Of a stretch of DNA of 64,000 bases, positions 21,306 through 63,862 are shown one piece after another. The stretch covers positions 1 to 64,000 of the forward strand of contig JAPPNK010000015.1 in assembly GCA_028818695.1 (NCBI GenBank), given 5' to 3'. The DNA is from Candidatus Poribacteria bacterium (GTDB lineage: Bacteria; Poribacteria; WGA-4E; GCA-2687025). The notes beneath the pieces are model-generated. The model did no database searches, was not told where the DNA came from, and saw nothing but the letters and a program-made list of their open reading frames with translations. Every line of letters begins with the position of its first letter. Position 1 is the stretch's first letter. Made by a program: the position numbers and the translations under genes.

Positions 21306-23126
21306 ATGAACAAAACCCCAGATTATGTCCAACGGAACCTGCCTGAAGGCGCGGAGGCGCGTCTCGGAAAAGGGTATGTTCTGGACATCGTCTATTCGCC
21401 GGACGGAGAGACCATGGCGGCGGCAAGCAGCGCCGGCGTCTGGCTTTACGACGCAAAGACCGGAAAGGAAACGGCGCTGCTGGGCGTCCCAGGGGAGCAG
21501 ACGTATGCGGCAGCCTTTTCGCCTAACGGAAAGATTCTTGCCGTCTGCAGCGCCGATTTCCTATTCAGCGGCGTCCTGAGGTTATGGAACATTCAGACAG
21601 GAGATGTCCAATCAAGCATGGAGATGTCCCATTATTCCATTTGCGCGGACTTCTCTCCCGACGGAAGAACGGTCGTAACAGGCGGCGGGGACGATGTACA
21701 TCTCTGGGATGTCCGATTCGGGGAACTGATAGCGCCGCTGAAGGGGCATAAAGAGAATGTCGTGTCGGTCGCGTTCTCTCCCGACGGAAACATTGCCGCC
21801 AGCGGCAGCGACGACGACACGATACGGCTCTGGGACGCCGAGACGGGCGATCGGCTCAAGACGCTCAAGGGGCATTCCAGCAATGTCAATTGCGTTGCGT
21901 TTTCGCCGGACGGCGAGCTCCTTGCCAGCGGCAGCGACGACGACACGATACGGCTCTGGGATGTCCAATCAGGCGAATGCAGGGCGGAACTGAAAGGACA
22001 TGACGAGCGGGTCTTCTCGGTTGCGTATTCGCCGGACGGCAAGCGGCTCGTCAGCGCGGGGGGAGACAAGAAAATACGGCTTTGGGACGCGCAAACAGGC
22101 GCGCATAAGCAGCAGATGATTGGACATGTTGGGGACATCGATTGCGTCGCATATTCGCCGGACGGGAGGACGATTGTCAGCGGCGGCGGAGCGCGGGAAG
22201 ACGGCGCCCTTCGATGCTGGGACGCGCAAACAGGCGCCGTCCGGCAGATCATCGATGGACACACGCCGTTTCTTTTCGGGTTGTCTTTTTCGCCCGATGG
22301 ACAGATTCTTGCGGCGGGATACGGCGATGACGCGGTACGGCTCTGGGATGTCCAAACCTGCTCTCTTTTGAAGACGCTGCGCGGACATACGCGCGATGTC
22401 TATTGCGTCGCCTTTTCGCCGGACGGCGCGTTGCTTGCCAGCGGCAGCTTTGACACGACGATACGGCTTTGGGATGTCCAATCCGGCGAATGGAGAACGA
22501 CGCTTAAAGGACATATTGACGATGTCGATTCGGTTGCGTTTTCGCCGGACGGCAAGACGCTCGCGAGCGGCGGTCCAAATGAGGAGGTTTGCCTATGGAG
22601 TCTCCAAACAGGCAATAGACGGAAAATGCCGGATGGACACAATCTTGAAACAATCAATTGCGTCGTTTTCTCGCCGAACGGAGAGACGCTCGCGTCCGGC
22701 GGAGATGACGGGACGGCGCATCTTTGGGATGTCCATAAAGGTAAGCTGGAACGGATCCTTGGAGGATATAAAAGCGGCGTTGTCTCGACTCGGTTCTCGC
22801 CGGACGGCAAGATGTTGGTCACAGGATGCGTGGACGGCTTGATTCGTCTGTGGAATGTCGAAACAGGCGCGCATACGAAGACCTTCACTGGACATACCGA
22901 CGACGTCAATTCCGTCGTCTATTCGCCGGACGGCCGCGCGCTTGCGAGCGGAAGCAACGACGGAACCGCGCGGCTCTGGGATGTCCAAACAGGAGAGCAA
23001 ACGGCTGTTTTGAAAGGACATGGAAATGTTGTGGGCGAGGTCGCTTTTTCGCCGGACGGGCAGACGCTCGCCGCCGGAAGCCTTGACGGAACCATTTTGC
23101 TATGGACGCTGAATGAGTGGGGATAA
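21306..23126 (+). CDS. WD40-repeat protein A (14 repeats)
   Basis: 606 residues made only of WD40 repeats of about 42 residues. A short N-terminal module (PDYVQRNLPEGAEARLGKG) is followed by 14 F/YSPDG or SPNG blade cores, enough for two seven-bladed propellers. Typical blades read GHTRDVYCVAFSPDG and TIRLWDVQSG. There is no signal peptide, membrane helix or catalytic domain, so a cytoplasmic binding or scaffold role is likely. First gene of a six-gene head-to-tail array; only two bases separate it from the next. No strong ribosome site precedes its ATG. Confidence 0.88.
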   Translation: MNKTPDYVQRNLPEGAEARLGKGYVLDIVYSPDGETMAAASSAGVWLYDAKTGKETALLGVPGEQTYAAAFSPNGKILAVCSADFLFSGVLRLWNIQTGDVQSSMEMSHYSICADFSPDGRTVVTGGGDDVHLWDVRFGELIAPLKGHKENVVSVAFSPDGNIAASGSDDDTIRLWDAETGDRLKTLKGHSSNVNCVAFSPDGELLASGSDDDTIRLWDVQSGECRAELKGHDERVFSVAYSPDGKRLVSAGGDKKIRLWDAQTGAHKQQMIGHVGDIDCVAYSPDGRTIVSGGGAREDGALRCWDAQTGAVRQIIDGHTPFLFGLSFSPDGQILAAGYGDDAVRLWDVQTCSLLKTLRGHTRDVYCVAFSPDGALLASGSFDTTIRLWDVQSGEWRTTLKGHIDDVDSVAFSPDGKTLASGGPNEEVCLWSLQTGNRRKMPDGHNLETINCVVFSPNGETLASGGDDGTAHLWDVHKGKLERILGGYKSGVVSTRFSPDGKMLVTGCVDGLIRLWNVETGAHTKTFTGHTDDVNSVVYSPDGRALASGSNDGTARLWDVQTGEQTAVLKGHGNVVGEVAFSPDGQTLAAGSLDGTILLWTLNEWG

Positions 23127-23128
23127 AT

Positions 23129-24953
23129 ATGAAACGCGCGCCCGAATATGTCCAATGGAACCTGCCTGAAGGCGCGGAGGCGCGTCTCGGCAAGGGGTTT
23201 GTGTCGGACATTGTCTTCTCGCCGGACGGGGAGACCATGGCGGCGGCAAGCAGTGCCGGCGTCTGGCTTTACGACGCAAAGACCGGAAAGGAAACCGCGT
23301 TGCTGGGCGTCCCAGGGGAGATTGCGTATGCGGCGTCCTTTTCGCCCAACGGAAAGATTCTTGCCGTATGCAGCTCCTATGTTGTGAGCGGAGGCGTTCT
23401 GCGGCTATGGGACATGCGGACAATGGATGTCCAATCCTGTATGGAGATGTCCGAAGATTCCGTCTGTGTCGACTTTTCTCCCGATGGGAAAACCGTTGTA
23501 ACGGGAGGCGGAGACGACGTACATCTGTGGGATGTCCGATTCGGGGAGCTGATTGTCTCATTAAAAGGACACCAACATTGGGTCTGGTCGGTCGCCTTCT
23601 CTCCTGACGGAACCATTGTCGCCAGCGGCAGCAACGACATGACGATACGTAACATGGGACGCCGAGACGGGCGTACGATATAAGACGATCAAGGGACCTA
23701 CGGATTGGATCAACTCAATCGCCTTTTCCCCTGACGGCAAGACGCTTGCGTGCGGAGGCGACGACAAGATGATTTGGACATGGGATGTCCAAACGGGCGA
23801 CAACAAGGCGCGGCTCCGGGGACATCGATCCGACGTTACGTCGGTTGCATTCTCTCCTGACGGCAAGCGTATCGTGAGCGCCAGCAACGATAAGACGGTA
23901 CGGATATGGGACGCCCAGACAGGCGCGCATAAACAGCAGCTGATTGGACATACCAGTAAAATCGATTGCGCCGTCTATTCTCCAGACGGACGCTCGATTG
24001 TGAGCGGCGGAGGAAATCGGGAAGACGGCTCTCTTTTATGCTGGGATGTCCAAACAGGCTTCGTCCGCCAATCCGTCGTTGGACATACGCCGTTTCTTTT
24101 CGACATTTCTTATTCTCCTGACGGCAAGACGATCGCGGCGGGATACGGCGACGACGCAATTCGCGTTTGGGATGTCCAAACAGGCGCTCTTTTAAAGACC
24201 CTGCGCGGACACACCGACGACGTCGATTGCATAATGTTTTCCCCGGACGGGAAAATGCTTGCCAGCGGGAGCGAAGATCATACGGTACGGCTTTGGGACG
24301 CGAAGACAGGGCAGTGTATTAAGACGCTCAAAGGACATGGGGACAGGGTCTGGTCGCTTGCGTATTCGCCGGACGGCAAGACGCTCGCCAGCGCCAGCCT
24401 TGACGCAACCATTGGTCTATGGAATGTCCAAACCGGCGGGAGACATGCGACGTTCCTTGGACATGACGACTCTCATATTAATTGCGCTGTCTTCTCGCCG
24501 GATGGGCAGACGCTGGCAACAGGAGGAGACGACTGGACGGCGCACCTTTGGGATGTCCATACGGGAGAGATGATCAAAATTATTGGGGGATACAACAGCG
24601 GAGTCGAGTCTGTTCAGTTCTCGCCGGACAGCAAAACGTTGATCACTGGACACGGCGACGGCTTGATTCGCGCCTGGGATATCGAAACGGGCGCGCACTT
24701 GAAGGCTTTAACTGGACATACTGACCGCGTCAATTGCGTTGTCTATTCGCCGGACGGCCGGACGCTTGCCAGCGGAAGCCATGATGGAACCGCGCGGCTT
24801 TGGGATGTCCAAACGGGAGAGCAGACGGCTGTTATGAAAGGACATGGAAATGTTGTGGACGAGGTCGCCTTTTCACCGGACGGACAAACGCTCGCCACCG
24901 GAAGCTTTGACGGAACCATCCTGCTATGGCCGCTGAAGGAATGGAGTAAATGA
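23129..24953 (+). pseudogene. WD40-repeat protein B, broken by a +1 frameshift
   Basis: The first part reads from ATG 23129 to a stop at 23681-23683; the remainder is open in the next frame from about 23655 to 24953 (its first in-frame ATG is at 23769). In sister genes ATA CGG CTC TGG GAC joins the blade; here it is ATA CGTAACA TGG GAC, one base too many at about 23648-23654. Removing one base restores 607 residues and 14 repeats, exactly like the neighbours. It is therefore a recent inactivation, or a sequencing/assembly error. No slippery sequence suggests programmed shifting. The intact start has the shared module APEYVQWNLPEGAEARLGKG. Confidence 0.85.
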
Positions 24954-26785
24954 TGAAACGCGCGCCTGAATATATCCAACGGAACTTGCCTGAAGGCGCG
25001 AAGGCGCGTCTCGGCAAGGGTTTTATGCACAACATCGCCTATTCGCCGGACGGGAAGACCATGGCGGCGGCAAGCAGCGCCGGCGTCTGGCTCTACGACG
25101 CAAAAACAGGAACGGAAACCGCGCTGCTGGGCTTCCCCGGCGAGTGGACGCAGGCGGCCGCTTTTTCGCCCAACGGAAAGATTCTTGCTGTATGCAGCGC
25201 CAATGCTATATATGGCGTCGGCGCTCTGCGGCTGTGGAACATGCGGACAATGGATGCCCAATCCAGCATGGAGATGTCCACCGATTCTTTTTGCGCCGCC
25301 TTTTCTCCCGATGGAGAAACCGTTGTAACGGGAGGCTGCGACGATGTACAGCTGTGGGATGTTCAATCAGGCGAATGCAGGGCGGAACTGAAAGGACATG
25401 ACGGACGGGTCATGTCGGTCGCCTTTTCTCCCGACGGGAGCGTTGTCGCCAGCGGCAGCTACGACGGCACGATACGGCTCTGGAACGCTGAAACGGGCGA
25501 TCGGCTCAAGACGCTCAAGGGACATTCCAGGGATGTCGATTGCGTTGCCTTTTCGTGCGTTGTCTTTTCGCCGGACGGCAAGACGCTTGCCAGCGGAAGC
25601 GAAGACAGCGCGATACGGCTTTGGGATGTCCAATCAGGCGACTGCAGGACGGAATTGAAAGGACATGACGGATATGTCATGTCGGTTGCGTATTCGCCGG
25701 ACGGCAAGCGGCTCGTCAGCGCAGGCAAAGACAAAAAGGTACGCCTTTGGGACGCAGAAACAGGCGGGCGTCAGCAGGAGCTGATTGGACATGTCGGGGA
25801 GATCAATTGCGTCGCATACTCTCCGGACGGGGGGACGATTGTCAGCGGCGGAGCGCGGAGGGACGGCTCCCTTCGATGTTGGGATGCGCAAACAGGCACC
25901 GTCCGACAGATCATCGATGGGCACACGCCGTTTCTTTGCGGCGGTCTGTCCTTTTCGCCCGATGGACAGACTCTCGCTGCAGGATACGGCGATGATGCGA
26001 TACGGCTCTGGGATGTCCAAACCCGCTCTCTTTTGAGTACGCTGCGCGGCCATACGGACAAAGTCAATTGCGTTCTCTTTTCGCCGGACGGCAAGGCGCT
26101 TGCCAGCGGAAGCGATGACAAAACGATACGGCTTTGGGATGTCCAATCAGGCGAATGCAGGACGGAACTGAAAGGACATAACGGGCGGGTCTGGTCGCTT
26201 GCGTATTCGCCGGACGGCAAAACGCTCGCGAGCGGCTGTCCAGATGATGAGGTTTGTCTATGGAATGTCCAAACAGGCGATAGACGGAAAATGCCGCTTG
26301 GACACAATGGCGAGAGAATCTGTTGCGTCGCGTTCTCGCCGGACGGAGAGACGGTCGCGTCCGGCGGAGATGACGGGACAGCGCATCTTTGGGACGCTCA
26401 TAAAGGCGAGCTGAAGCGAATCCTTGGAGGATATAAAAGCCGCCGCGTCATCTCAATGCAATTTTCGCCGGACGGCAAGACGCTTGCCAGCGGAGACATT
26501 GACAACATGATACGGCTTTGGGATGTCGAAACTGGCGCGCATTTGAACGCCTTAACTGGACAGACCGACGGCATCACTTGCGTCGTCTTTTCGCCGGACG
26601 GTCGGACGCTTGCCAGCGGAAGCGACGACAACACGATACGGCTTTGGGATGTCCAATCCGGCGAATGCAAGAAGGTACTGAAAGGACACCACGGGGGCGT
26701 CTGGTCAATTGCATATTCGCCGGACGGTTGGACGCTTGCCAGCGGAGGCTTAGACGGAACGATTTTGCTATGGGAAACCGAATAA
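24950..26785 (+). CDS. WD40-repeat protein C (14 repeats)
   Basis: 611 residues with the array's N-terminal module (APEYIQRNLPEGAKARLGKG) and 14 WD40 blade cores. It starts inside the stop of gene B (ATGA), so translation is coupled. It carries a 15-base tandem duplication (25541-25555 and 25556-25570) that adds five residues (CVAFS-CVVFS) to the core strand of the fifth blade, which explains its greater length than A. No other domain and no export signal. Confidence 0.88.
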   Translation: MMKRAPEYIQRNLPEGAKARLGKGFMHNIAYSPDGKTMAAASSAGVWLYDAKTGTETALLGFPGEWTQAAAFSPNGKILAVCSANAIYGVGALRLWNMRTMDAQSSMEMSTDSFCAAFSPDGETVVTGGCDDVQLWDVQSGECRAELKGHDGRVMSVAFSPDGSVVASGSYDGTIRLWNAETGDRLKTLKGHSRDVDCVAFSCVVFSPDGKTLASGSEDSAIRLWDVQSGDCRTELKGHDGYVMSVAYSPDGKRLVSAGKDKKVRLWDAETGGRQQELIGHVGEINCVAYSPDGGTIVSGGARRDGSLRCWDAQTGTVRQIIDGHTPFLCGGLSFSPDGQTLAAGYGDDAIRLWDVQTRSLLSTLRGHTDKVNCVLFSPDGKALASGSDDKTIRLWDVQSGECRTELKGHNGRVWSLAYSPDGKTLASGCPDDEVCLWNVQTGDRRKMPLGHNGERICCVAFSPDGETVASGGDDGTAHLWDAHKGELKRILGGYKSRRVISMQFSPDGKTLASGDIDNMIRLWDVETGAHLNALTGQTDGITCVVFSPDGRTLASGSDDNTIRLWDVQSGECKKVLKGHHGGVWSIAYSPDGWTLASGGLDGTILLWETE

Positions 26786-26798
26786 ACGGAGTGGACGG

Positions 26799-28622
26799 AT
26801 GAAAGAGATTCCCGCGTATGTCCAATGGAACCTGCCTGAAGGCGCGAAGGCGCGTCTCGGCAAGGGGTATGTGACGGACATCGCCTATTCGCCGGACGGG
26901 GAGACCATGGCGGCGGCAAGCAGCGCCGGCGTTTGGCTCTATGATGCCGAGACGGGAGCTGAAACGGCTCTGCTGGGCGTGCCTGGCGAACGGGCGCAGG
27001 CGGTCGCTTTTTCGCCCAGCGGAAAAAAGATTGCCTCCGCCAACACTGGAGGGACGGCGCGGCTTTGGGATGTCCAAACGGGAAACCTGCTCGCCAGCTT
27101 TACGGAAAAGGACGATATCCTATGCGCCGCTTTCTCTCCCGACGGACGAACAATCGCAACCGGCGGGACGAGCGCCGCTGTCCATCTTTGGGATGTCCAA
27201 TATGCGCAGCTCATCACGGAGCTGAAGGGACACAGTGGGGCAATCCTGTCGGTCGCCTTTTCGCCGGACGGACAGACGCTCGCCAGCGGCAGCTCAAGCA
27301 TACGGATATGGGACGCGGCATTATACAGCAGAGGGAACAAATCGATCAAAACGCTCAAAGGACATGCGAACGCGGTGAAGGCTGTCGCCTTTTCTCCGGA
27401 CGGCAAGACGCTTGCGAGCGGAAGCGAGGACAAGACTGCCCGGCTCTGGGACGTCCAAACATGGGAATGCAAGGCGGAGCTGAAAGGACACAGCGAATGG
27501 GTCAAGTCGGCCGCCTTTTCTCCGGACGGCAAGACGCTTGCGACCTGCAGCGACGACAAGACGATACGGCTCTGGGACGGACAAACGGGGCTGTATAAAC
27601 AGCAGATGATTGGACATACGGGCGACGTGGATTGCGTCGCTTTTTCGCCCGACAGCAAGACGCTTGCGAGCGCGGGTCAATACAAAGATGTCCATATCCG
27701 TTTCTGGGACGCGCAAACAGCGGCAGAGCAGAGAACCATCGAAGGACATACGACCAATCTGGACACGGTCGCCTTTTCTCCGGACGGCAAGATACTCGCC
27801 ACTGGACACTGGGACGACGCGATACGGTTTTGGGATGTCCAATCAGGCGCGTTGTTGAGAACGGTCTTAGGACATACCAGCGATGTGAACTGCGCTGTCT
27901 TCTCGCCGGACGGCAAGATTTTAGCCAGCGGAAGCGACGATGAAACCGCGCGCCTTTGGGATGTCCAAACAGGCAAGACGCTGAAGATATTGAAGGGGCA
28001 TGGGAACGCTGTTTACCGCGCCGCCTTTTCTCCCGATGGACAAACGCTTCTCACGAGCAGCTACGATCATACGGCGCGGCTCTGGGATGTTCAGAAAGGA
28101 CGGCATAAAAGGACGTTGAATGGACATACAGCGGATGTGTGCGGCGCCGCTTATTCGCCCGATGGACAAACCGTTGCGACCGGCAGCGACGACAAGATGA
28201 TACGCCTATGGGACGCGGACACAGGGAAAGAAAAAACGGTTCTAGAAGGGCATACGGATTGCATCTGGTCGGTTCAGTTTTCGCCGGACGGGAGGCTGCT
28301 GGCGAGCGCAAGCGACGATCGGACCGTTCGCCTATGGAATGTCCAAAGGGGGAGGATCCATAAGACGCTGGAGGGGCATACGGACAACGTTATGTGCGCC
28401 ACTTTTTCTTCTGATGGACAGATGATCGCCAGCGGCGGCGAGGACCGCTCCGTCCGCATCTGGGATGTCCAAACGGGAGAGCAGACGGCGATCTTTAACG
28501 GGCATTCGAATCATGTATATGAGGTCGCTTTTTCGCCGGACGGCAAAACGCTGGCGAGCGGCAGCTACGACGGGACGGCTCTGCTCTGGACAGTCCCAAA
28601 TGACGAGGGGGATTCTGATTGA
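26799..28622 (+). CDS. WD40-repeat protein D (14 repeats)
   Basis: 607 residues, 14 blade cores, start module IPAYVQWNLPEGAKARLGKG. The ATG follows GGAGTGGACGG. Blades 2-4 differ from A-C and match gene E (for example SRGNKSIKTLKGH and KDVHIRFWDAQTAAE), so D and E form a subfamily. Bases 27881-28120 are identical to 29707-29946 in gene E. Its stop overlaps the TTG start of E (TTGA). Confidence 0.88.
   Translation: MKEIPAYVQWNLPEGAKARLGKGYVTDIAYSPDGETMAAASSAGVWLYDAETGAETALLGVPGERAQAVAFSPSGKKIASANTGGTARLWDVQTGNLLASFTEKDDILCAAFSPDGRTIATGGTSAAVHLWDVQYAQLITELKGHSGAILSVAFSPDGQTLASGSSSIRIWDAALYSRGNKSIKTLKGHANAVKAVAFSPDGKTLASGSEDKTARLWDVQTWECKAELKGHSEWVKSAAFSPDGKTLATCSDDKTIRLWDGQTGLYKQQMIGHTGDVDCVAFSPDSKTLASAGQYKDVHIRFWDAQTAAEQRTIEGHTTNLDTVAFSPDGKILATGHWDDAIRFWDVQSGALLRTVLGHTSDVNCAVFSPDGKILASGSDDETARLWDVQTGKTLKILKGHGNAVYRAAFSPDGQTLLTSSYDHTARLWDVQKGRHKRTLNGHTADVCGAAYSPDGQTVATGSDDKMIRLWDADTGKEKTVLEGHTDCIWSVQFSPDGRLLASASDDRTVRLWNVQRGRIHKTLEGHTDNVMCATFSSDGQMIASGGEDRSVRIWDVQTGEQTAIFNGHSNHVYEVAFSPDGKTLASGSYDGTALLWTVPNDEGDSD
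27881..28120 (+). repeat. 240-base tract identical to 29707-29946
   Basis: By eye I find no difference between these 240 bases in gene D and the tract 1826 bases downstream in gene E. A further 30-odd upstream bases differ at only two sites. Flanking sequence diverges more. Synonymous sites are also identical, so the tract reflects very recent duplication or gene conversion rather than protein-level constraint. Confidence 0.8.
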
Positions 28623-30445
28623 ACAAAGAACCTGAATATGTCCAATGGAACCTGCCTGAAGGGGCGCGGGCGCGTCTTGGCAAAGGATATGTGACATACA
28701 TCGCCTATTCGCCGGACGGGGAGACCATCGCGGCGGCAAGCAGCGCCGGCGCATGGCTCTACGACGCGAAGACAGGAGAAGAGGCCGCGCTGTTGAGCGT
28801 CCCAGGCGAACGGACGCAGGCGGTCGCTTTTTCGCCCAACGGAAAAATACTCGCCGCCGCCAACCTCGAAGGGATGACGCGGCTATGGAGCGTCCGAAAA
28901 GGCAAGCTTCTCGCCAGCTTGACACAAAACGGCGCTGTCCTGTGCGCCGCCTTCTCTCCGGACGGACGCACGCTCGCCACCGGCGGACACAACTCTGCGC
29001 TTCATCTTTGGGATGTCCAACACGGTCAGCTGATTGTCGCGCTGCAAGGACACCGCGACGATATTCTGTCGCTTGCGTATTCGCCGGACGGCGAAAAGAT
29101 CGCTAGCGGAAGTTTGGACACGGCGATACGCATCTGGGACGCGCAGCTGTACGCCCAAGGGAATAAATCGATCAAAACGCTCAAAGGACACAAGGCGCGG
29201 GTGAACAGCGTCGCGTTCTCGCCGGACGGCAGGACGCTCGCCAGCGGCAGCGCTGACAAGACGCTCCGCCTGTGGGATGTCCAAACATGGGAATGCAAGG
29301 CGGAGCTGAAAGGACACAAATTTCCTGTGAAATCGATCGCCTATTCGTCGGACGGGCGGCTTTTAGCGAGCGGGAGCGGAGACAAGACGATACGTCTCTG
29401 GGGGGGACAAACGGGGCAGTATAAACAGCAGATGATTGGGCATACAGGCCATTTGGATTGCGTCGTTTTTTCGCCCAACAGCAAGACGCTTGCGAGCGCG
29501 GGTGAATATAAAGATGTCCATATACGCTTTTGGGACGCGCAAACAGCCGCGGAGCGGCGAACCATCGAAGGACATACGACCAATCAGGACTCGGTCGCGT
29601 TCTCTCCTGACGGCAAAACGCTCGCCACTGGACACTGGGACGACGCGATACGGCTTTGGGATGTCCAATCAGGCGCGCTGTTGAGAACGGTCTTAGGACA
29701 TACCAACGATGTGAACTGCGCTGTCTTCTCGCCGGACGGCAAGATTTTAGCCAGCGGAAGCGACGATGAAACCGCGCGCCTTTGGGATGTCCAAACAGGC
29801 AAGACGCTGAAGATATTGAAGGGGCATGGGAACGCTGTTTACCGCGCCGCCTTTTCTCCCGATGGACAAACGCTTCTCACGAGCAGCTACGATCATACGG
29901 CGCGGCTCTGGGATGTTCAGAAAGGACGGCATAAAAGGACGTTGAACGGACATACAGAGGAAGTGTGCGGCGCCGCTTATTCGCCCAATGGACAAACCGT
30001 TGCGACCGGCAGCGACGACAAGACGATACGCCTATGGGACGCGGGCACAGGGGAAGAAAAAGCGGTTCTAAAAGGGCATGAGAAATGTGTCTGGTCGGTT
30101 CAGTTTTCGCCGGACGGAAGGCTGCTGGCGAGCGCAAGCGATGATCTGACCGTTCGTTTATGGAATGTCCAAAGAGGGCGGCTCCATAAGACGCTGGAGG
30201 GGCATACAGACGGCGTCGTATGCGCCGCCTTTTCTCCTGATGGACAGATGATCGCTAGCGGCGACGACCGCGCCGTCCGCATCTGGGATGTCCAAACGGG
30301 AGAGAAGACAGCGGTCTTTTACGGACATTCGCGTCATGTATTTGAGGTCGCATTTTCGCCGGACGGGAAGACGCTTGCAAGCGGCAGTTATGATGGAACG
30401 GCTCTGCTCTGGACAGTCCCAAATGGCGAGGAGGCCTCTGATTGA
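28619..30445 (+). CDS. WD40-repeat protein E (14 repeats)
   Basis: 608 residues, 14 blade cores, TTG start overlapping the end of gene D. The module EPEYVQWNLPEGARARLGKG again precedes the first blade (YSPDGETIAAASSAGAWLYD). It is the closest sister of D, including a 240-base identical tract covering blades 9-10. The last blade ends SGSYDGTALLWTVPNGEE, nearly the same as D. No catalytic or membrane segments. Confidence 0.88.
   Translation: MNKEPEYVQWNLPEGARARLGKGYVTYIAYSPDGETIAAASSAGAWLYDAKTGEEAALLSVPGERTQAVAFSPNGKILAAANLEGMTRLWSVRKGKLLASLTQNGAVLCAAFSPDGRTLATGGHNSALHLWDVQHGQLIVALQGHRDDILSLAYSPDGEKIASGSLDTAIRIWDAQLYAQGNKSIKTLKGHKARVNSVAFSPDGRTLASGSADKTLRLWDVQTWECKAELKGHKFPVKSIAYSSDGRLLASGSGDKTIRLWGGQTGQYKQQMIGHTGHLDCVVFSPNSKTLASAGEYKDVHIRFWDAQTAAERRTIEGHTTNQDSVAFSPDGKTLATGHWDDAIRLWDVQSGALLRTVLGHTNDVNCAVFSPDGKILASGSDDETARLWDVQTGKTLKILKGHGNAVYRAAFSPDGQTLLTSSYDHTARLWDVQKGRHKRTLNGHTEEVCGAAYSPNGQTVATGSDDKTIRLWDAGTGEEKAVLKGHEKCVWSVQFSPDGRLLASASDDLTVRLWNVQRGRLHKTLEGHTDGVVCAAFSPDGQMIASGDDRAVRIWDVQTGEKTAVFYGHSRHVFEVAFSPDGKTLASGSYDGTALLWTVPNGEEASD
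29707..29946 (+). repeat. 240-base tract identical to 27881-28120
   Basis: Partner of the identical tract in gene D. It spans blades 9 and 10 of protein E. Confidence 0.8.
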
Positions 30446-31371
30446 ACAAAGAGCCTGAATGCGGCCAATGGAACCTGCCGAAAGGGGCGCGGGCGCGTCT
30501 CGTCAAAGGGGACCCCTCCATCGCTTTGAGCTGCGCCTATTCGCGCGACGGCCGGGCGCTCGCGACTGGACATCGGGACGGCGCGATTCGCCTGTGGGAC
30601 GCCTATACCGGCGCGCTCATGAAATCTTTGCGCGGACATATCGGCGATGTCAACAGCGTTTCGTTTTCGCCGGACGGCAGGACGCTTGCCTCTGCCGGCG
30701 ACGATGAAACGGTACGCCTATGGAGCGTCCACACAGGCGCTCTTCAAAAGACGCTCAAAGGACATATCGATTGGGCTTTGTCGGTCGACTTCTCGCCGGA
30801 CGGAGAAACGGTTGTCAGCGTCGGCGACGACGGGGCGATTCGCGTCTGGAACGCCTCAACAGGAGGATGCGAAACTGTCCTGAATGAAGCGCATGCCGAC
30901 CTCATCAATTGCGTTGCCTATTCGCCGGACGGCAAGACGCTCGCCAGCAGGAGCGACGATCTGTCTGTCCGCATATGGGATGTCCAAACAAGAGCGCGTT
31001 TGAGAACGCTTATTGGACACGCCGACGATGTCAACGGCGTGTCGTATTCTCCGGACGGGCGTTTTCTTGCCAGCTGCGGCGCCGACCAGAAGATAACGAT
31101 ATGGAATCTGGCGTCGGGAGAGGTTCAGAAAACATTGATTGGACATGAGAGCGAGCTTTATGGAATTGCGTATTCTCCGGACGGGCGTTTTCTCGCCAGC
31201 TGCGGCGCTGACAAAGCTGTATGGGTCTGGGATGTCCAAACAGGCGCGCCGAAAGCGGGATTGAAAGGACACAACGGGAATGTGTATGAGGCGGCGTTTT
31301 CGCCGGACGGCAAGACGCTCGCCACCGCAAGCCATGACGGAACCGTTCTTCTTTGGACAGTTCAGTCTTAG
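30442..31371 (+). CDS. WD40-repeat protein F (7 repeats)
   Basis: 309 residues and seven blade cores, i.e. a single propeller, half the size of its five upstream neighbours. TTG start overlaps the stop of E. The N-terminal module persists in altered form (PECGQWNLPKGARARLVKG), but the first 'SS.G.WLYD' blade is missing. It closes the array and its stop overlaps by four bases the convergent gene on the other strand, leaving no room for a separate terminator. Confidence 0.87.
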   Translation: MNKEPECGQWNLPKGARARLVKGDPSIALSCAYSRDGRALATGHRDGAIRLWDAYTGALMKSLRGHIGDVNSVSFSPDGRTLASAGDDETVRLWSVHTGALQKTLKGHIDWALSVDFSPDGETVVSVGDDGAIRVWNASTGGCETVLNEAHADLINCVAYSPDGKTLASRSDDLSVRIWDVQTRARLRTLIGHADDVNGVSYSPDGRFLASCGADQKITIWNLASGEVQKTLIGHESELYGIAYSPDGRFLASCGADKAVWVWDVQTGAPKAGLKGHNGNVYEAAFSPDGKTLATASHDGTVLLWTVQS

Positions 31372-42147: not shown

Positions 42148-43839
42148 CTAAGAGGCAATATCCGAAAACAGGTTTTGCCGCGCCGGCTTGCCGGTGAACG
42201 GGTCCAGCATCAGAGGGAGCTCAATGACGCGCTTCCAGTCGCCCTGCTTTTCAAAGTACTCCTGGATGGAGAAGGGCTGCATGGACGGATACGCCCTGCC
42301 GCTCACCTCAACAGACGGACGCTTGGAGCCTTGCTCCCACTCGCGCCATTTCGTCTGCGTCTCCAACGTGATGAGTATGCCCATCGCCGCCTCGTTGTCG
42401 TCCAGAACGCCTTTGAGAGCGCGGTATTTGCCGACCTGCGAGCCGGGAGAGCCGGTGACCTCCGCAATGACCCCGCGCAAATCGCAGTTGACAGGCTTAG
42501 ACGCCATGACCCCCGCCCCGTCCACGCCGCCGTCTCCCGATTTCTTCGGGTTCACAGCCAGCCCAGGAATGAGCGACACCGCCCAGTCCTGAAACATATA
42601 AGGGTCTTGCGTGTGCAAGAAACGCGCCTCCGTCAAGTTGGTCGGCGCGCCCTTCACCGGCAGCGCAGGACGCCCCTGCGGAACGATGCGCAGATCGTTG
42701 ATGAGGTTCAGCGCCGGCGCGTAAATATCGATGCCGACGGCGAGGCGTTTGTTGTTGAGCGCCGACTCCGTAGAAGTCCCGCAGCCGCAGAACGGGTCCA
42801 GAACAATGTCGCCCTCGTTGGACGAGGCGCGGATGATGCGGTCTAGGAGGGCGAGCGGTTTCTGGGTCGGATAGCCCAGCTGCTCATTTTTCGGCGTCGG
42901 CGGAATGTCAAGGATGAGGCTCTGCAAGGGTTGGCCGCTTTTTTCTGTGAGATAGCGTTTGAACCGCGGCTGTCCGCCTTCTTTCTTCGGCCAGTGTATG
43001 AGTCCCTGTTGGTCTAGGACATCAAGCTTTTCCCTCGGTTTGAGTTGCGCGTACCCGTCAGGAAATACGAACCAATCGGGGAAAGAACGGTCTGGCGGCA
43101 GCGCCCAGTGCCTCCCTCTTCCGCTTTGAGCGGGGTTGTAGTTGCGCCATGCTTTTCCTGAATCGCCGCTGCGTTTGCCAGAGCCTGTTAAGTCGCTAGT
43201 TGTGAAAACGCCTTTCTCATCTTCGAAAGGATAGAATTTGTCGATGTGGTCTTGGGTGAAGGACTGCAGGACGCGGTTCCATGCGCATTGCTCGGTTTTG
43301 CTGTAGTAAAGCAGCGTGTCATGGATCGGTCCCCACCGCTTTGCGCTGTTATGGCTTGAGGTGCGCTTCCACACGATTTCGTTTCGAAAATTCTTTTCGC
43401 CGAAAATCGCGTCCATGATGACCCGCAGATACGAGTTCGCCGTCGGGTCGCAATGCAGATACAGCGACCCCGTCGGTTTCAAAACCCTCCAGCATTCAAA
43501 CAGCCGCTCCGCCATATAGGAGGTGTAGGAGAGCATTTTGGATCTCGGCATGAACAGCTCAAAGCCCTGTATCACCTTTGAGGCGGGGTTGGCGGCGGCG
43601 TTTTTGACGCGCTCCAAACGATCAAACGCCTCATCGCTCCATGTCCAGATGTCCTCGTACGCCTTCACCTGCGGATTGAGCGACTTGCCGAACAACCCGC
43701 TGCCCTTGAAGATGTTGTTGTAATTCGCGTCCGAGTTGAACGGCGGATCCAGATAGACAAGGTCGGCGCATTCCGAAGACCAACCGCGCATGATCTGCAA
43801 ACAATCGCCGAAGTAGAGCGTGTTTTCTTCAAATTTCAT
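42148..43839 (-). CDS. Site-specific DNA methyltransferase fused to a C-terminal nuclease-like (Mrr-type) domain
   Basis: 563 residues. Motif IV DPPF (residues 31-34, in DLVYLDPPFNSDANYN) and motif I VLDPFCGCGTSTESAL (about 360) identify an N4/N6 amino-methyltransferase of beta-type motif order. The last 170 residues resemble the PD-(D/E)xK domain found in related methylases: KKSGDGGVDG, then VIAEVTGSPGSQVGKYRALKGVL…GILITLE. The expected V-x-V-K-(S/G)G strand reads AEVTG (about 459-463), so the catalytic Lys is Thr and cleavage may be lost. ATG 43839 is the start; the open frame back to 43950 only translates a REP-like repeat. Confidence 0.87.
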   Translation of the reverse strand: MKFEENTLYFGDCLQIMRGWSSECADLVYLDPPFNSDANYNNIFKGSGLFGKSLNPQVKAYEDIWTWSDEAFDRLERVKNAAANPASKVIQGFELFMPRSKMLSYTSYMAERLFECWRVLKPTGSLYLHCDPTANSYLRVIMDAIFGEKNFRNEIVWKRTSSHNSAKRWGPIHDTLLYYSKTEQCAWNRVLQSFTQDHIDKFYPFEDEKGVFTTSDLTGSGKRSGDSGKAWRNYNPAQSGRGRHWALPPDRSFPDWFVFPDGYAQLKPREKLDVLDQQGLIHWPKKEGGQPRFKRYLTEKSGQPLQSLILDIPPTPKNEQLGYPTQKPLALLDRIIRASSNEGDIVLDPFCGCGTSTESALNNKRLAVGIDIYAPALNLINDLRIVPQGRPALPVKGAPTNLTEARFLHTQDPYMFQDWAVSLIPGLAVNPKKSGDGGVDGAGVMASKPVNCDLRGVIAEVTGSPGSQVGKYRALKGVLDDNEAAMGILITLETQTKWREWEQGSKRPSVEVSGRAYPSMQPFSIQEYFEKQGDWKRVIELPLMLDPFTGKPARQNLFSDIAS

Positions 43840-43888
43840 CGTTCGTCCATCCAATCCGCCCCCATAGCCAGCCCCTGTGAAAACAGGG

Positions 43889-43918
43889 GTCATTCCCGCG
43901 CAAGCGGGAATCCAGAAT
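43889..43918. repeat. REP-like palindrome, copy C
   Basis: TCATTCCCGC-GCAA-GCGGGAATCCAGAA, a clean palindrome of the same family as copies near 1640, 35000 and 59340 (opposite orientation to 59340). Read through, it gives the spurious peptide GFWIPACAGMT at the front of the methyltransferase frame. Confidence 0.75.
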
Positions 43919-43970
43919 CCCGGCAGAAACCGTCCGCGTCTGTACCTCATGCCCGCGCCGTCACACGGTC

Positions 43971-44062
43971 AATCTTAAAATCTTTTCAATCCTGCAAATC
44001 CTAGTTCAGACAATCAGCCGCCGCCCAAGGCGCAAATCCCCCAGCCCGCCTTACAAAGGGGT
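43971..44062. repeat. Two further dispersed-repeat types in one gap
   Basis: Bases 43971-44016 contain AATCTTTTCAATCCTGCAAATCCT…TTCAGACAATC, a motif type widespread between genes in many bacteria. Bases 44035-44062 contain AATCCCCC…GCCTTACAAAGGGGTG, a decayed relative of the CCCCCTT-GACA-AAGGGGG hairpin at 46182-46199. With copy C (43889-43918), three repeat families lie in about 175 bases between the methyltransferase and the nuclease-like gene. Confidence 0.5.
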
Positions 44063-44066
44063 GAGT

Positions 44067-44666
44067 CTAGGAATCCGCCGCGCCCGCCGATTGAGCAGCG
44101 GCTAGGATGCTCAATATGCGCTCCCAAGAGATTTCCTCGTTCACAGCAATGTTAATGCTGATGTTTTTGTGCGCCATCCGCATCATCCTGTGGGGGTCCT
44201 CGCGGATTTCCTCCCTATACCAGGATTCGTCCTCTTTGTAGGGCTGCTCGCTGATGAGGATGTAGCATAACGAAACTTGCGCGCCGCCAAGGCTGACCTC
44301 AGCCAGAACTTTACAAACAGCGCGCAGATATTCGATGAGCGGGCGCGACCACCGCAGCTGCTCCATGTGATCATATAGATCGTCCCTGCGCAGCGTTTTT
44401 TTCAATTCAACCAACAGCGCGCAGTCGTTTCCGTCCACCTGAAACGCCAGCAGGTAGTCGCATGACTTCTTCCAGCCGCCATCCCTGAAACCCGCCAATT
44501 GCGCAATCTTGCCAATCTCTCTTATGTCCACTGCGACCAGATCGGAAGGCGCGTCAAACAACAGCGCCCGCTGATGTCGATCTTTAAGCTCAATGCGGCC
44601 GTTCTTTGGCGACTCGACAGCGCCGCGTATCAATATCTCGCGCAGGCTTTCCGCAAAGCTCGCCAA
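44067..44666 (-). CDS. PD-(D/E)xK nuclease-like protein paired with an ATPase
   Basis: 199 residues, no named family recognised. It contains Asp70 in KKSCDYLLAF and E87-L-K89 in CALLVELKKTL, the spacing of a PD-(D/E)xK catalytic core with the right strand pattern around it. TTG start directly abuts the stop of the ATPase gene (zero gap), with GGAAAAAG upstream, so the two are translated together. I infer an effector nuclease regulated by the ATPase. A non-catalytic partner is the alternative. Confidence 0.7.
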   Translation of the reverse strand: MASFAESLREILIRGAVESPKNGRIELKDRHQRALLFDAPSDLVAVDIREIGKIAQLAGFRDGGWKKSCDYLLAFQVDGNDCALLVELKKTLRRDDLYDHMEQLRWSRPLIEYLRAVCKVLAEVSLGGAQVSLCYILISEQPYKEDESWYREEIREDPHRMMRMAHKNISINIAVNEEISWERILSILAAAQSAGAADS

Positions 44667-46058
44667 CTACTTTTTCCGTTCAGCCCAGACATGTTCAGCG
44701 AAGGCTCTTGCCCGTCGGTTGACATTGTTGATCGTCTCGTCAAAGTTCGGGTAATCGATTCCGTAGTCGTTCATATCGCATAGCTTCAAGCCGTTCTTTT
44801 CAGCGATATAGCCGCGGACCTGGTTGGCGTCCAAACATTCGCCTTCGTCGTATCCGTATTTTTTGGCGACCCGCTCTTTGTCTCGGAAATCTCTGCCCAG
44901 CATGATCAGGTTGTTGATCTCCTTGACGATGTAATCGCTGTGCGTCGTGATGAAAACCTTCATCCCCGCCCGCGCCAGCCGCGCCAGCAAACGCGCCATT
45001 TCAATCTGGTTCGCCGTGTCCAGATGCGCCTCCGGCTCATCCACCATGAGAAGCTGCCCTGGTTCGGCGACATGGCGCATGTAAAAATACATATCCGAAA
45101 GCCCCCGCGCCGACGAGGACGCCCGATACAAAGGAATATTGAACCGCCTGTCTCCACGCGCTGTAGAGACGAATCGGACGCCGCCGTTTTCGACGCGGTA
45201 GTAGCCCTGCATCATGCGCTTGATGTCGTCATGCCGCTTCTGCTCATACAGCCCGCTTTTCCGGTCTGCCCAGTCGGGAATGTCGCGCGTGAAATTGAGG
45301 TTGTCCCGGATCGGGCGAGCGTATCGGCTGGCCGCTTTCTTGATCAGGTCAGAACGCGCTCCGCTTTCTTTTTCGTTGTCGTCGGATCTCATTTGCAGCA
45401 GCTTCTCCACTAGCTCGCTCCTTGCGAAATCGAGCTCGCGGTGAAAAATCGAAATGCTGAACCGCTCGCTTGTCAGAATAAACGGTTTCGGGACGGCAAA
45501 AAGCAGCTCTGGAAACATAATATGAAGATAGGAGTGCGCAAGATCAATAAAATAAGAGCTTCCCTGAGGATGCGCTACCTTGGGAGACAATATCCATTCG
45601 TCGCCTTCTTGATTCAAAGACAGCCACGAATCCCTGAACCGCTCAGGATCTATGTCTGGAGGATCGCGCAGCAGAACGTCGAAAGATGCGTTCTTAAACG
45701 CTTCGGCGTCTGCGTTGAACACCTCGGGCAGCGTATACTCAGAATAGTGTTGTGTGATCCATTTAAGGATCTCTGTTCGACGCAGTTCCAACGCTTTTTG
45801 ATCGGTCGGCAGCTTAAGCATTCCCGCTTTGCCAGCTTCCAAGACCAGTTGACTGAACGGAGGTACCGTTAAGCTCCTAGCGTCTGCTATGATGGGAAAA
45901 GGCCATCTTTTCAGAAAGCCGTAAAGCGCGTAGGCGACATACGTTTTGCCGGTGTTGTTGCGCCCGGCGATGATCGTCAGGTCGCCCAGCTCCAGCTCGG
46001 CTTCTTTGATGGGTCCGAGGTTTTTAAACAAAAATTTCGGGCGGGAGCCGTTGTTCAT
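44667..46058 (-). CDS. AAA15/OLD-like ABC-type ATPase
   Basis: 463 residues with a split SMC/ABC-like ATPase: Walker A AGRNNTGKTY (31-40), a long helical insert with a signature-like SSSARGLSDMY, Walker B LLMVDEPEAHLD and H-loop VFITTHSDYIV. It opens FKNLGPIKEAELELGDLTII, as OLD-family and AAA15 proteins do, but lacks the TOPRIM nuclease of OLD; the nuclease-like role may be supplied by the next gene. GAGGG lies eight bases before the ATG. It has its own promoter. Such ATPase/nuclease pairs are frequent in phage-defence loci. Confidence 0.8.
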   Translation of the reverse strand: MNNGSRPKFLFKNLGPIKEAELELGDLTIIAGRNNTGKTYVAYALYGFLKRWPFPIIADARSLTVPPFSQLVLEAGKAGMLKLPTDQKALELRRTEILKWITQHYSEYTLPEVFNADAEAFKNASFDVLLRDPPDIDPERFRDSWLSLNQEGDEWILSPKVAHPQGSSYFIDLAHSYLHIMFPELLFAVPKPFILTSERFSISIFHRELDFARSELVEKLLQMRSDDNEKESGARSDLIKKAASRYARPIRDNLNFTRDIPDWADRKSGLYEQKRHDDIKRMMQGYYRVENGGVRFVSTARGDRRFNIPLYRASSSARGLSDMYFYMRHVAEPGQLLMVDEPEAHLDTANQIEMARLLARLARAGMKVFITTHSDYIVKEINNLIMLGRDFRDKERVAKKYGYDEGECLDANQVRGYIAEKNGLKLCDMNDYGIDYPNFDETINNVNRRARAFAEHVWAERKK

Positions 46059-62573: not shown

Positions 62574-62740
62574 GAATCTACTCCCCGGACGCCTTCGGGT
62601 TGCCGTCGGACTTTTACTTCTGACATTGCGTCCGATTTGAACAGGATTTTCGTATATCGTCGTTTATAAAGAACACCCATCAAAAATTTCGTTGATGTCT
62701 ATGTCAGCCGTTGTTATCATGGCGCGTCGGGAGGGCGTAC

Positions 62741-63862
62741 ATGGGCAAGGTTGGACGTTGGAAGCTGGTCGGTTATGCGGCGGCGCTTTTTTGGCTTCGA
62801 CCCAACGCGTTCAAATCGGTTTCGCCGAGGATGGTCTTGCCTGGACATGCCGGCGGGGTCAAAACTGTCCTATTTTTACCAGATCATAAAACGCTCCTCA
62901 GCGCAGGCGTTGACAACGCTATCCGCCTCTGGGACGCCGAATCTGGACGGCTTCTTCAAACAAAAAGGTTCGCCTCCGTCTCCGGCGCGTCGGTTTCGAG
63001 CGACGGTCGAACCATCGCCTTCGGCGGCGATTACGCAGAATTGCGTCTATGGGACGTCTCGACCGGCGAGATCAAAACCTTGAGACTGGCGAAAGCTGGT
63101 TCCATACACACGCCTAGGTTCTCCCCCGACGACCGAAAGATCGCCGCTGTCTTTGACGATGGCGGGACGCATTCGATCTATATTTGGGATGTCGAGACGG
63201 GAGCGCTGCTCCATACGCTCCATGGAAAGCGTCTTTATCCGCTTAGCTTCGCGTATTCGCCAGGCGAAAGCCAGACCGCTGGGACGCTTGCGGCTAGCGG
63301 TGAGGATCTTACAGTCAAGGTTTGGGATCTGAATACAGGCGCACTGCTCCATACGATTGGACACTCTGCCGCGATCAATTTTATCGCATATTCGCCGGAC
63401 GGGAAGAGCGTCGCCAGCGCCAGCCGCGACGATACCGTCAAGGTCTGGGATGTGAAGACGGGCGCGCTGATCCATAGGCTCAATGGGCATAGCGACTGGG
63501 TCTTTTGGGTCTCTTACTCGCCGGACGGGAAAAGAATTGTCAGCGTCAGCCGCGATAAGACCGTCAAAATATGGGACGCGGCTGCAGGCGTCCTGCTTCA
63601 AACGCTGAACGACAGCGGGAAGAACCTCTTTGCTGCCGTATATTTTCCGAACGGGAAGAAGCTGATCAGCTTCAGCCACAAAGCCGTCAAGATATGGGAC
63701 GCAAAGACAGGGGAGCGTCTTCAAACGTTTGCTCATTCTTCGAAATGGATCAATTACTACGCGTTTTCTATAGACGGAAAGGCGCTCGCCGGCTCCAACA
63801 ACAACGGCGAGATTCTGGTTTGGGACATTGAAGAGGAGCCGCTGCCGCAACAGCGCCGATAG
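62741..63862 (+). CDS. WD40-repeat protein G, solitary
   Basis: 373 residues with about eight WD40 blade cores (FLPDHKTLLSAG, YSPDGKSVASAS, YSPDGKRIVSVS, FSIDGKALAGSN). The N-terminus has a short hydrophobic stretch (LVGYAAALFWL) that could be a weak membrane anchor, and lacks the LPEGA..RLGKG module of the 21-31 kb array. Blades differ from the array at many positions (VKIWDAAAG, VKVWDVKTG), so it is an older relative, not part of the recent expansion. ATG 62741 follows GGGAGGG. Confidence 0.82.
   Translation: MGKVGRWKLVGYAAALFWLRPNAFKSVSPRMVLPGHAGGVKTVLFLPDHKTLLSAGVDNAIRLWDAESGRLLQTKRFASVSGASVSSDGRTIAFGGDYAELRLWDVSTGEIKTLRLAKAGSIHTPRFSPDDRKIAAVFDDGGTHSIYIWDVETGALLHTLHGKRLYPLSFAYSPGESQTAGTLAASGEDLTVKVWDLNTGALLHTIGHSAAINFIAYSPDGKSVASASRDDTVKVWDVKTGALIHRLNGHSDWVFWVSYSPDGKRIVSVSRDKTVKIWDAAAGVLLQTLNDSGKNLFAAVYFPNGKKLISFSHKAVKIWDAKTGERLQTFAHSSKWINYYAFSIDGKALAGSNNNGEILVWDIEEEPLPQQRR

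Follow-up and report, generated by a model that had tools for sequence, protein, structure and literature searches.

Apparently cytosolic WD40 double propellers in a lineage-specific tandem array of a Candidatus Poribacteria genome

What use might a bacterium have for a 10-kb block of genes that encode propeller repeats and nothing else? The question was raised by six back-to-back coding regions on the + strand, which occupy positions 21306-31371 of the window (the whole 64,000-nucleotide stretch analysed, from contig JAPPNK010000015.1 of Candidatus Poribacteria assembly GCA_028818695.1). That WD40 proteins are abundant in Poribacteria and often carry Por-type tails was known already (Kamke et al. 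2014, PMC3909097); the present analysis supplies a defined family and a testable binding face.

Gene content and predicted fold of the array

The following features were assigned in the array:

21306..23126, + strand: gene A, 606 aa, 14 WD40 blades, leader MNKTPDYVQRN, signal peptide absent
23129..24953, + strand: gene B, 14 blades over two frames, +1 frameshift at ~23651-23654
23651..23654, + strand: frameshift site of gene B, AACA in place of one codon (CGT AACA TGG)
24950..26785, + strand: gene C, 611 aa, 14 blades, signal peptide absent
26799..28622, + strand: gene D, 607 aa, 14 blades, two seven-bladed propellers in the model
26832..26867, + strand: residues 12-23 of gene D (LPEGAKARLGKG), modelled as the N-terminal strand by which the C-terminal propeller is closed
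28619..30445, + strand: gene E, 608 aa, 14 blades, TTG start, 81-82% identity to D
30442..31371, + strand: gene F, 309 aa, 7 blades, single propeller, leader strand LPKGARARLVKG as in the long genes

Blades were counted as [FY]SPDG-type cores, which gave 14, 14, 14, 14, 14 and 7 for genes A-F, and a blade HMM made from the array genes returned an identical tally, so that the counts given in the initial annotation hold. Its description of tight packing with overlapping starts was likewise confirmed: the spacing is operon-like, with 3 nt from the A stop to the B start, a gap of 13 nt between C and the start of D, and 4-nt overlaps of C with B, E with D and F with E. Pfam searches of the five intact genes returned WD40/beta-propeller models only and no enzyme domain in the array proteins, and no hydrophobic leader was present on A-E or visible on F (polar leaders of 11-12 residues), in line with the proposed lack of enzyme and export segments. 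Rfam and tRNA searches over the 64-kb window gave no matches. The six genes were recovered as described, with the exception that gene B is not a single open frame. Its frames (23129-23683 and 23769-24953) connect only via an extra base at ~23651-23654, and its downstream half is open for more than 400 codons; gene B is thus either a pseudogene, a sequencing or assembly error or a frameshift site.

The structure of gene D was predicted by AlphaFold2 with 19 relatives (pLDDT 93.8, pTM 0.89). The model consists of an N-terminal strand (residues 16-20) and 14 blades, of which blade 14 is without a fourth strand. Solved seven-bladed chains superposed on the model over ~288 residues at 0.9 Å, in a range from residue 14 to 598-600, and one ring is therefore predicted to comprise the N-terminal strand and the C-terminal blades (as read from alignment ranges, not from coordinates). 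The long array proteins are thus shown by the model as two closed seven-bladed rings, closure being read from the same ranges, and the earlier proposal of closed rings in whole units is upheld by the prediction. LPEGA..RLGKG, which had been described as a separate module, is instead part of the fold in this model, namely the strand with which the C-terminal ring closes, and it takes the place that strand d with the GH dipeptide has in an ordinary blade. Since the C-terminal ring is completed by an N-terminal strand, a ring would be removable as a unit, as in gene F, for which one ring with the same leader strand was modelled (single sequence input, pLDDT 84); a single strand that closes the last ring, so that rings behave as units, would be the structural logic of these proteins. 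In a blade comparison, the first two blades and the last blade of gene F were closest to indices 8, 9 and 14, and its middle blades did not fit an exact loss of blades 1-7 from a neighbour.

Outside the array, a further WD40 protein (383 aa, 62711-63862, + strand) is encoded near the window end. On the - strand, a DNA methyltransferase (42148-43950), a 199-aa gene (44067-44666) and an AAA ATPase matching PD-T4-4_A (44667-46058, PADLOC E 7e-101) lie side by side, and 42148-46058 is likely an anti-phage locus.

The LPEGA family, array history and cellular location

The array genes conform to a motif of an LPxGAxxR(L/I)GKG strand plus 14 blades (gene F with 7 blades and LPKGARARLVKG), for which a family, the Poribacterial LPEGA double-propeller family, was defined in this analysis. 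Genome matches of strand-plus-14-blades proteins came nearly all from Candidatus Poribacteria MAGs, and the N-terminal query was matched in 80 of 84 Poribacteria genomes, ordinary WD40 repeats being counted in. By HMM, 14 blades was the mode (exactly 14 in 60 of 103 members), a few members had 7, 21 or 28, and the class scored at 15-16 blades results at least partly from HMM over-splitting. A signal peptide is present in most members (usual, not universal), some carry C-terminal sorting (Por/FlgD-type), cohesin or dockerin domains, and four checked members carry an N-terminal ECF sigma factor (match regions L056, L061, L075 and L104). At least one of these ECF sigma-propeller fusions has a hydrophobic, probably membrane-spanning segment between the two parts, and the fusions are possible propeller-sensing transcription regulators. 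A WD40 protein with an apparent DnaJ-like J-domain at its start (by eye) was noted at G000:C23:32891-35020 (L037).

Many tandem WD40 clusters are present in the window's genome. One of them, the C9 array (G000:C9:1-8831; L021:1-9473), is a second leaderless array with at least five double-propeller genes; it reaches a contig end, follows immediately on an ECF sigma gene and contains one gene split over two frames. In a quick tree of 89 members, with SH-aLRT as the support measure, the window and C9 genes formed one clade (SH-aLRT 100) beside exported paralogs from the same genome. The simplest reading of the sequences is that the signal peptide was lost once before both arrays formed, followed by tandem growth. 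As a check put forward in the initial annotation, the locus was compared in two same-family genomes: the upstream block lysS-lolC/E-lolD-ilvE-clpC is kept there and is followed by bamA-skp-lpxD without WD40 genes (gene names from lysS to lpxD are our reading of translations), and the array is thus a lineage-specific insertion here. A functional link of the array to clpC was considered and rejected, as the block is conserved in relatives that have no WD40 genes in it; the adjacency is probably accidental.

The closest kin of the window genes within the genome carry export leaders. Cysteine content per 100 aa was 1.2-3.1 in the window proteins (1.0-3.1 with C9 included), whereas the 74 exported members had a median of 0.17; independently leaderless members elsewhere tended to be higher as well (0.4-1.7). 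A rank test gave p=2e-8 with relatedness ignored; the tree gives three supported independent contrasts, two on average as expected, which are too few for significance. The high cysteine content of the array proteins is what would be expected of cytosolic proteins, and both the loss of the signal peptide and the gain of cysteines point to a cytosolic location. The same two observations, together with the absence of secretion genes beside the array, count against host-interaction effectors that would leave the cell non-classically and act on the sponge. We consider such effectors very improbable, even though Poribacteria live as symbionts of sponges and encode many eukaryote-like repeats (PMC3909097) and the closest relatives within the genome are exported.

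Divergence among paralogs

In fungal HNWD proteins, positive selection was reported at repeat codons 7, 9, 25 and 27, which flank conserved positions 8 and 26 (PMC1805685). These codons correspond to positions 3, 5, 21 and 23 here, which flank a conserved V and D, and the four top-face positions were taken from that work ahead of the final dN/dS test. Blade alignments were anchored on the SPDG and WD motifs, and dN/dS was determined by a counting method. At the four positions, the median dN/dS was 0.85 between paralogs (n=12) and 0.34 (n=10) between ortholog-like pairs from different genomes (p=0.002), the latter picked by identity without a synteny check and dS being disturbed by gene conversion. 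The remaining repeat positions did not differ (0.22 in paralogs vs 0.19 in ortholog-like pairs), and the ratio of top-face to remaining positions was 3.7 in paralogs vs 1.9 in ortholog-like pairs (p=0.0005; sister pairs). Top-face dN/dS was raised in all window pairs and by the counting method was confidently above 1 only for A-C (1.45, bootstrap 1.01-2.08). At the level of these codon counts, the paralogs are shown to diverge mostly at four top-face residues per blade, which agrees with the earlier suggestion of a diversified binding family with excess variation at top-loop positions.

Overall dN/dS amounted to 0.29-0.43 among A, B and C and to 0.31 between D and E; at core positions it was close to 0.2. 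These values, and the intact reading frames of all array genes but B, argue against a burst of tandem copies that are decaying under weak selection and have no function, an explanation that would fit the frameshift of gene B and the C9 gene in two frames and that we regard as improbable.

One further feature was assigned to gene D:

27881..28120, + strand: recent gene-conversion tract, 240 nt identical to E at ~29707-29946, blades 9-11

The longest identical run in shuffles was 76 nt, and by this measure D and E are shown to have exchanged the tract through recent gene conversion. The best match of each D blade in E was at the same index (14 of 14), and mean identity among blades within one protein was 40-46% (~44%); judged from these comparisons, the paralogs were copied as whole genes. 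Repeat shuffling of the HNWD type was rejected on the same two findings. The resemblance to HNWD receptors noted in the initial annotation is therefore apt for the top-face residues that vary and does not extend to mechanism: blade number is stable, shuffling is absent, the blades are not highly identical to each other as those of HNWD are, and NACHT/nSTAND1 was absent over cut-off. Its statement that no STAND NTPase is linked was correct for the array proteins (Pfam), and the genome had none over cut-off. Repeat number, whose fixity combined with a lack of excess loop variation had been named beforehand as a refuting outcome, is stable across the family, as the HMM counts above indicate.

Toxin-fused relatives and comparison with known systems

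When N-terminal matches fetched from other genomes were inspected for leaders, three with a short leader were noted in addition to the genes of the window and of C9, namely in G081 (L175), G069 (L174) and G045 (L176). L175 is a propeller-DarT fusion (PF14487, E 4.5e-19) that adjoins a NADAR-DarT1 antitoxin gene (PF22397, E 8e-87); L174:2809-7006 is a long propeller that has no leader and is joined to a PRTase (PADLOC PsyrT, E 1.3e-19; ShosT/PsyrT-like), and it adjoins a DprA-like gene (PADLOC PsyrA, E 2.5e-46; ShosA/PsyrA-like); L176 is a leaderless propeller without a fusion. A targeted DarT search found propeller-DarT beside NADAR in G012 (14 blades), G044 and G045 (7-8 blades) and G063 and G065 (11 by HMM). 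Propeller-DarT with an adjacent NADAR gene thus occurs in at least six Poribacteria genomes and the ShosT/PsyrT-like fusion in one; G042 and G050 have split or truncated propeller-DarT versions, and other DarT loci have no propeller. Propeller-DarT fusions (7, 11 or 14 blades) with an adjacent NADAR-DarT1 gene were located at:

L175:3389-6813 (G081)
L228:2459-5770
L231:2935-5883
L232:2881-5814
L227:3089-5691
L233:589-3149

A bSEFIR defence gene lies next to one toxin-fusion locus. Propellers are unmentioned in the DarT-NADAR literature examined, and the propeller-toxin fusions appear to be undescribed so far. Diversification of the DarT-fused propellers was considered and gained no support: in the lone close pair (L231/L232) the propeller is more conserved than DarT. 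Across the phylum, the same double propeller is found exported, on ECF sigma factors or fused to toxins of toxin-antitoxin systems.

In the tree, the propellers with a fused toxin lie elsewhere and do not form the sister group of the window clade, so propellers turned cytosolic on several occasions, at least two of them in a toxin context. DarT was found neither in the window proteins (Pfam) nor in the window's genome, and no toxin, NTPase or antitoxin was found beside the window array or the C9 array. The characterization as pure binding domains without an effector accordingly holds for the array, but not for those cytosolic family members of other Poribacteria in which DarT or PRTase is fused and antitoxins are adjacent.

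It was considered whether each propeller could serve as an adaptor in one endogenous complex, with a top face specialized after duplication and conserved thereafter. The fairly conserved top face of ortholog-like pairs is equally compatible with fixed partners and with an arms race, and specialized housekeeping scaffolds account for this conservation nearly as well; the divergence of paralogs, the stable 14-blade architecture, the lack of a linked effector and the scaffold role of eukaryotic double propellers of similar fold (UTP12, CFAP52) fit them too. Against scaffolds stand the conserved lysS-to-clpC locus without an array in family relatives, the frameshifted array member and the fact that, among the first three leaderless members recovered from other genomes, two are toxin fusions. 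We regard housekeeping scaffolds as possible, with limited confidence.

The reading that we prefer, with about even confidence, is that the array is a lineage-specific tandem set of cytosolic WD40 propellers from a formerly exported LPEGA family, most likely recognition parts that gate a response encoded elsewhere. An exported LPEGA double propeller would have lost its signal peptide and given rise to a cytosolic array in which five genes (one of them frameshifted) encode double propellers and one encodes a single propeller; the top face of each protein would bind a different protein or peptide ligand, and these parts may gate or regulate a response, for example in conflict or stress, whose genes lie at another place in the genome. 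This functional reading is by analogy, because the toxin-fused propellers are not sisters of the window clade, and on the same analogy the array proteins are possibly conflict sensors. That the array and C9 together form a cytosolic modular recognition repertoire, with a top face diversified like that of immune receptors and a sensor that is separate from its effector here and fused to DarT or PRTase in related genomes, seems doubtful to us. The DarT and PRTase fusions offer a direct laboratory route to propeller ligands and are the most useful lead.

Among known systems, the exported LPEGA double propellers share with the array the LPxGA..R(L/I)GKG strand, 14 blades, genome and phylum, and tandem arrangement; a signal peptide and a low cysteine content are typical of them, and Por/FlgD-type tails, dockerin domains or fused ECF sigma factors occur in some, whereas the array has none of these. 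The DarT-NADAR (DarTG1) and ShosTA/PsyrTA-like loci of other Poribacteria contain cytosolic LPEGA-type propellers, mostly of 7 or 14 blades, with a toxin domain and an adjacent antitoxin, both of which the array lacks. The two-ring arrangement is also found in matched structure entries that we take to be UTP12/WDR3 and CFAP52, and in AIP1 (TM 0.78, 0.77 and 0.60 to the query, in this order), which are eukaryotic scaffolds with ~20% identity to the array query. Fungal HNWD/NWD proteins of Podospora have in common with the array the excess change at four top-face positions per blade; the array differs by its fixed repeat number and by the absence of NACHT, HET and repeat shuffling. In vWA-MoxR ternary conflict systems with beta-propellers, a vWA-propeller protein and a MoxR ATPase are encoded in one locus (PMC7159879); no such arrangement was noticed among the proteins looked at here. 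The best full-length match in structure and sequence is Npun_R6612 of Nostoc punctiforme (2ymu, WRAP), with 14 blades, two rings and 42-44% identity; in WRAP, nearly identical blades are joined to a STAND ATPase (PMC9218822), whereas the array blades are ~44% identical and stand without STAND.
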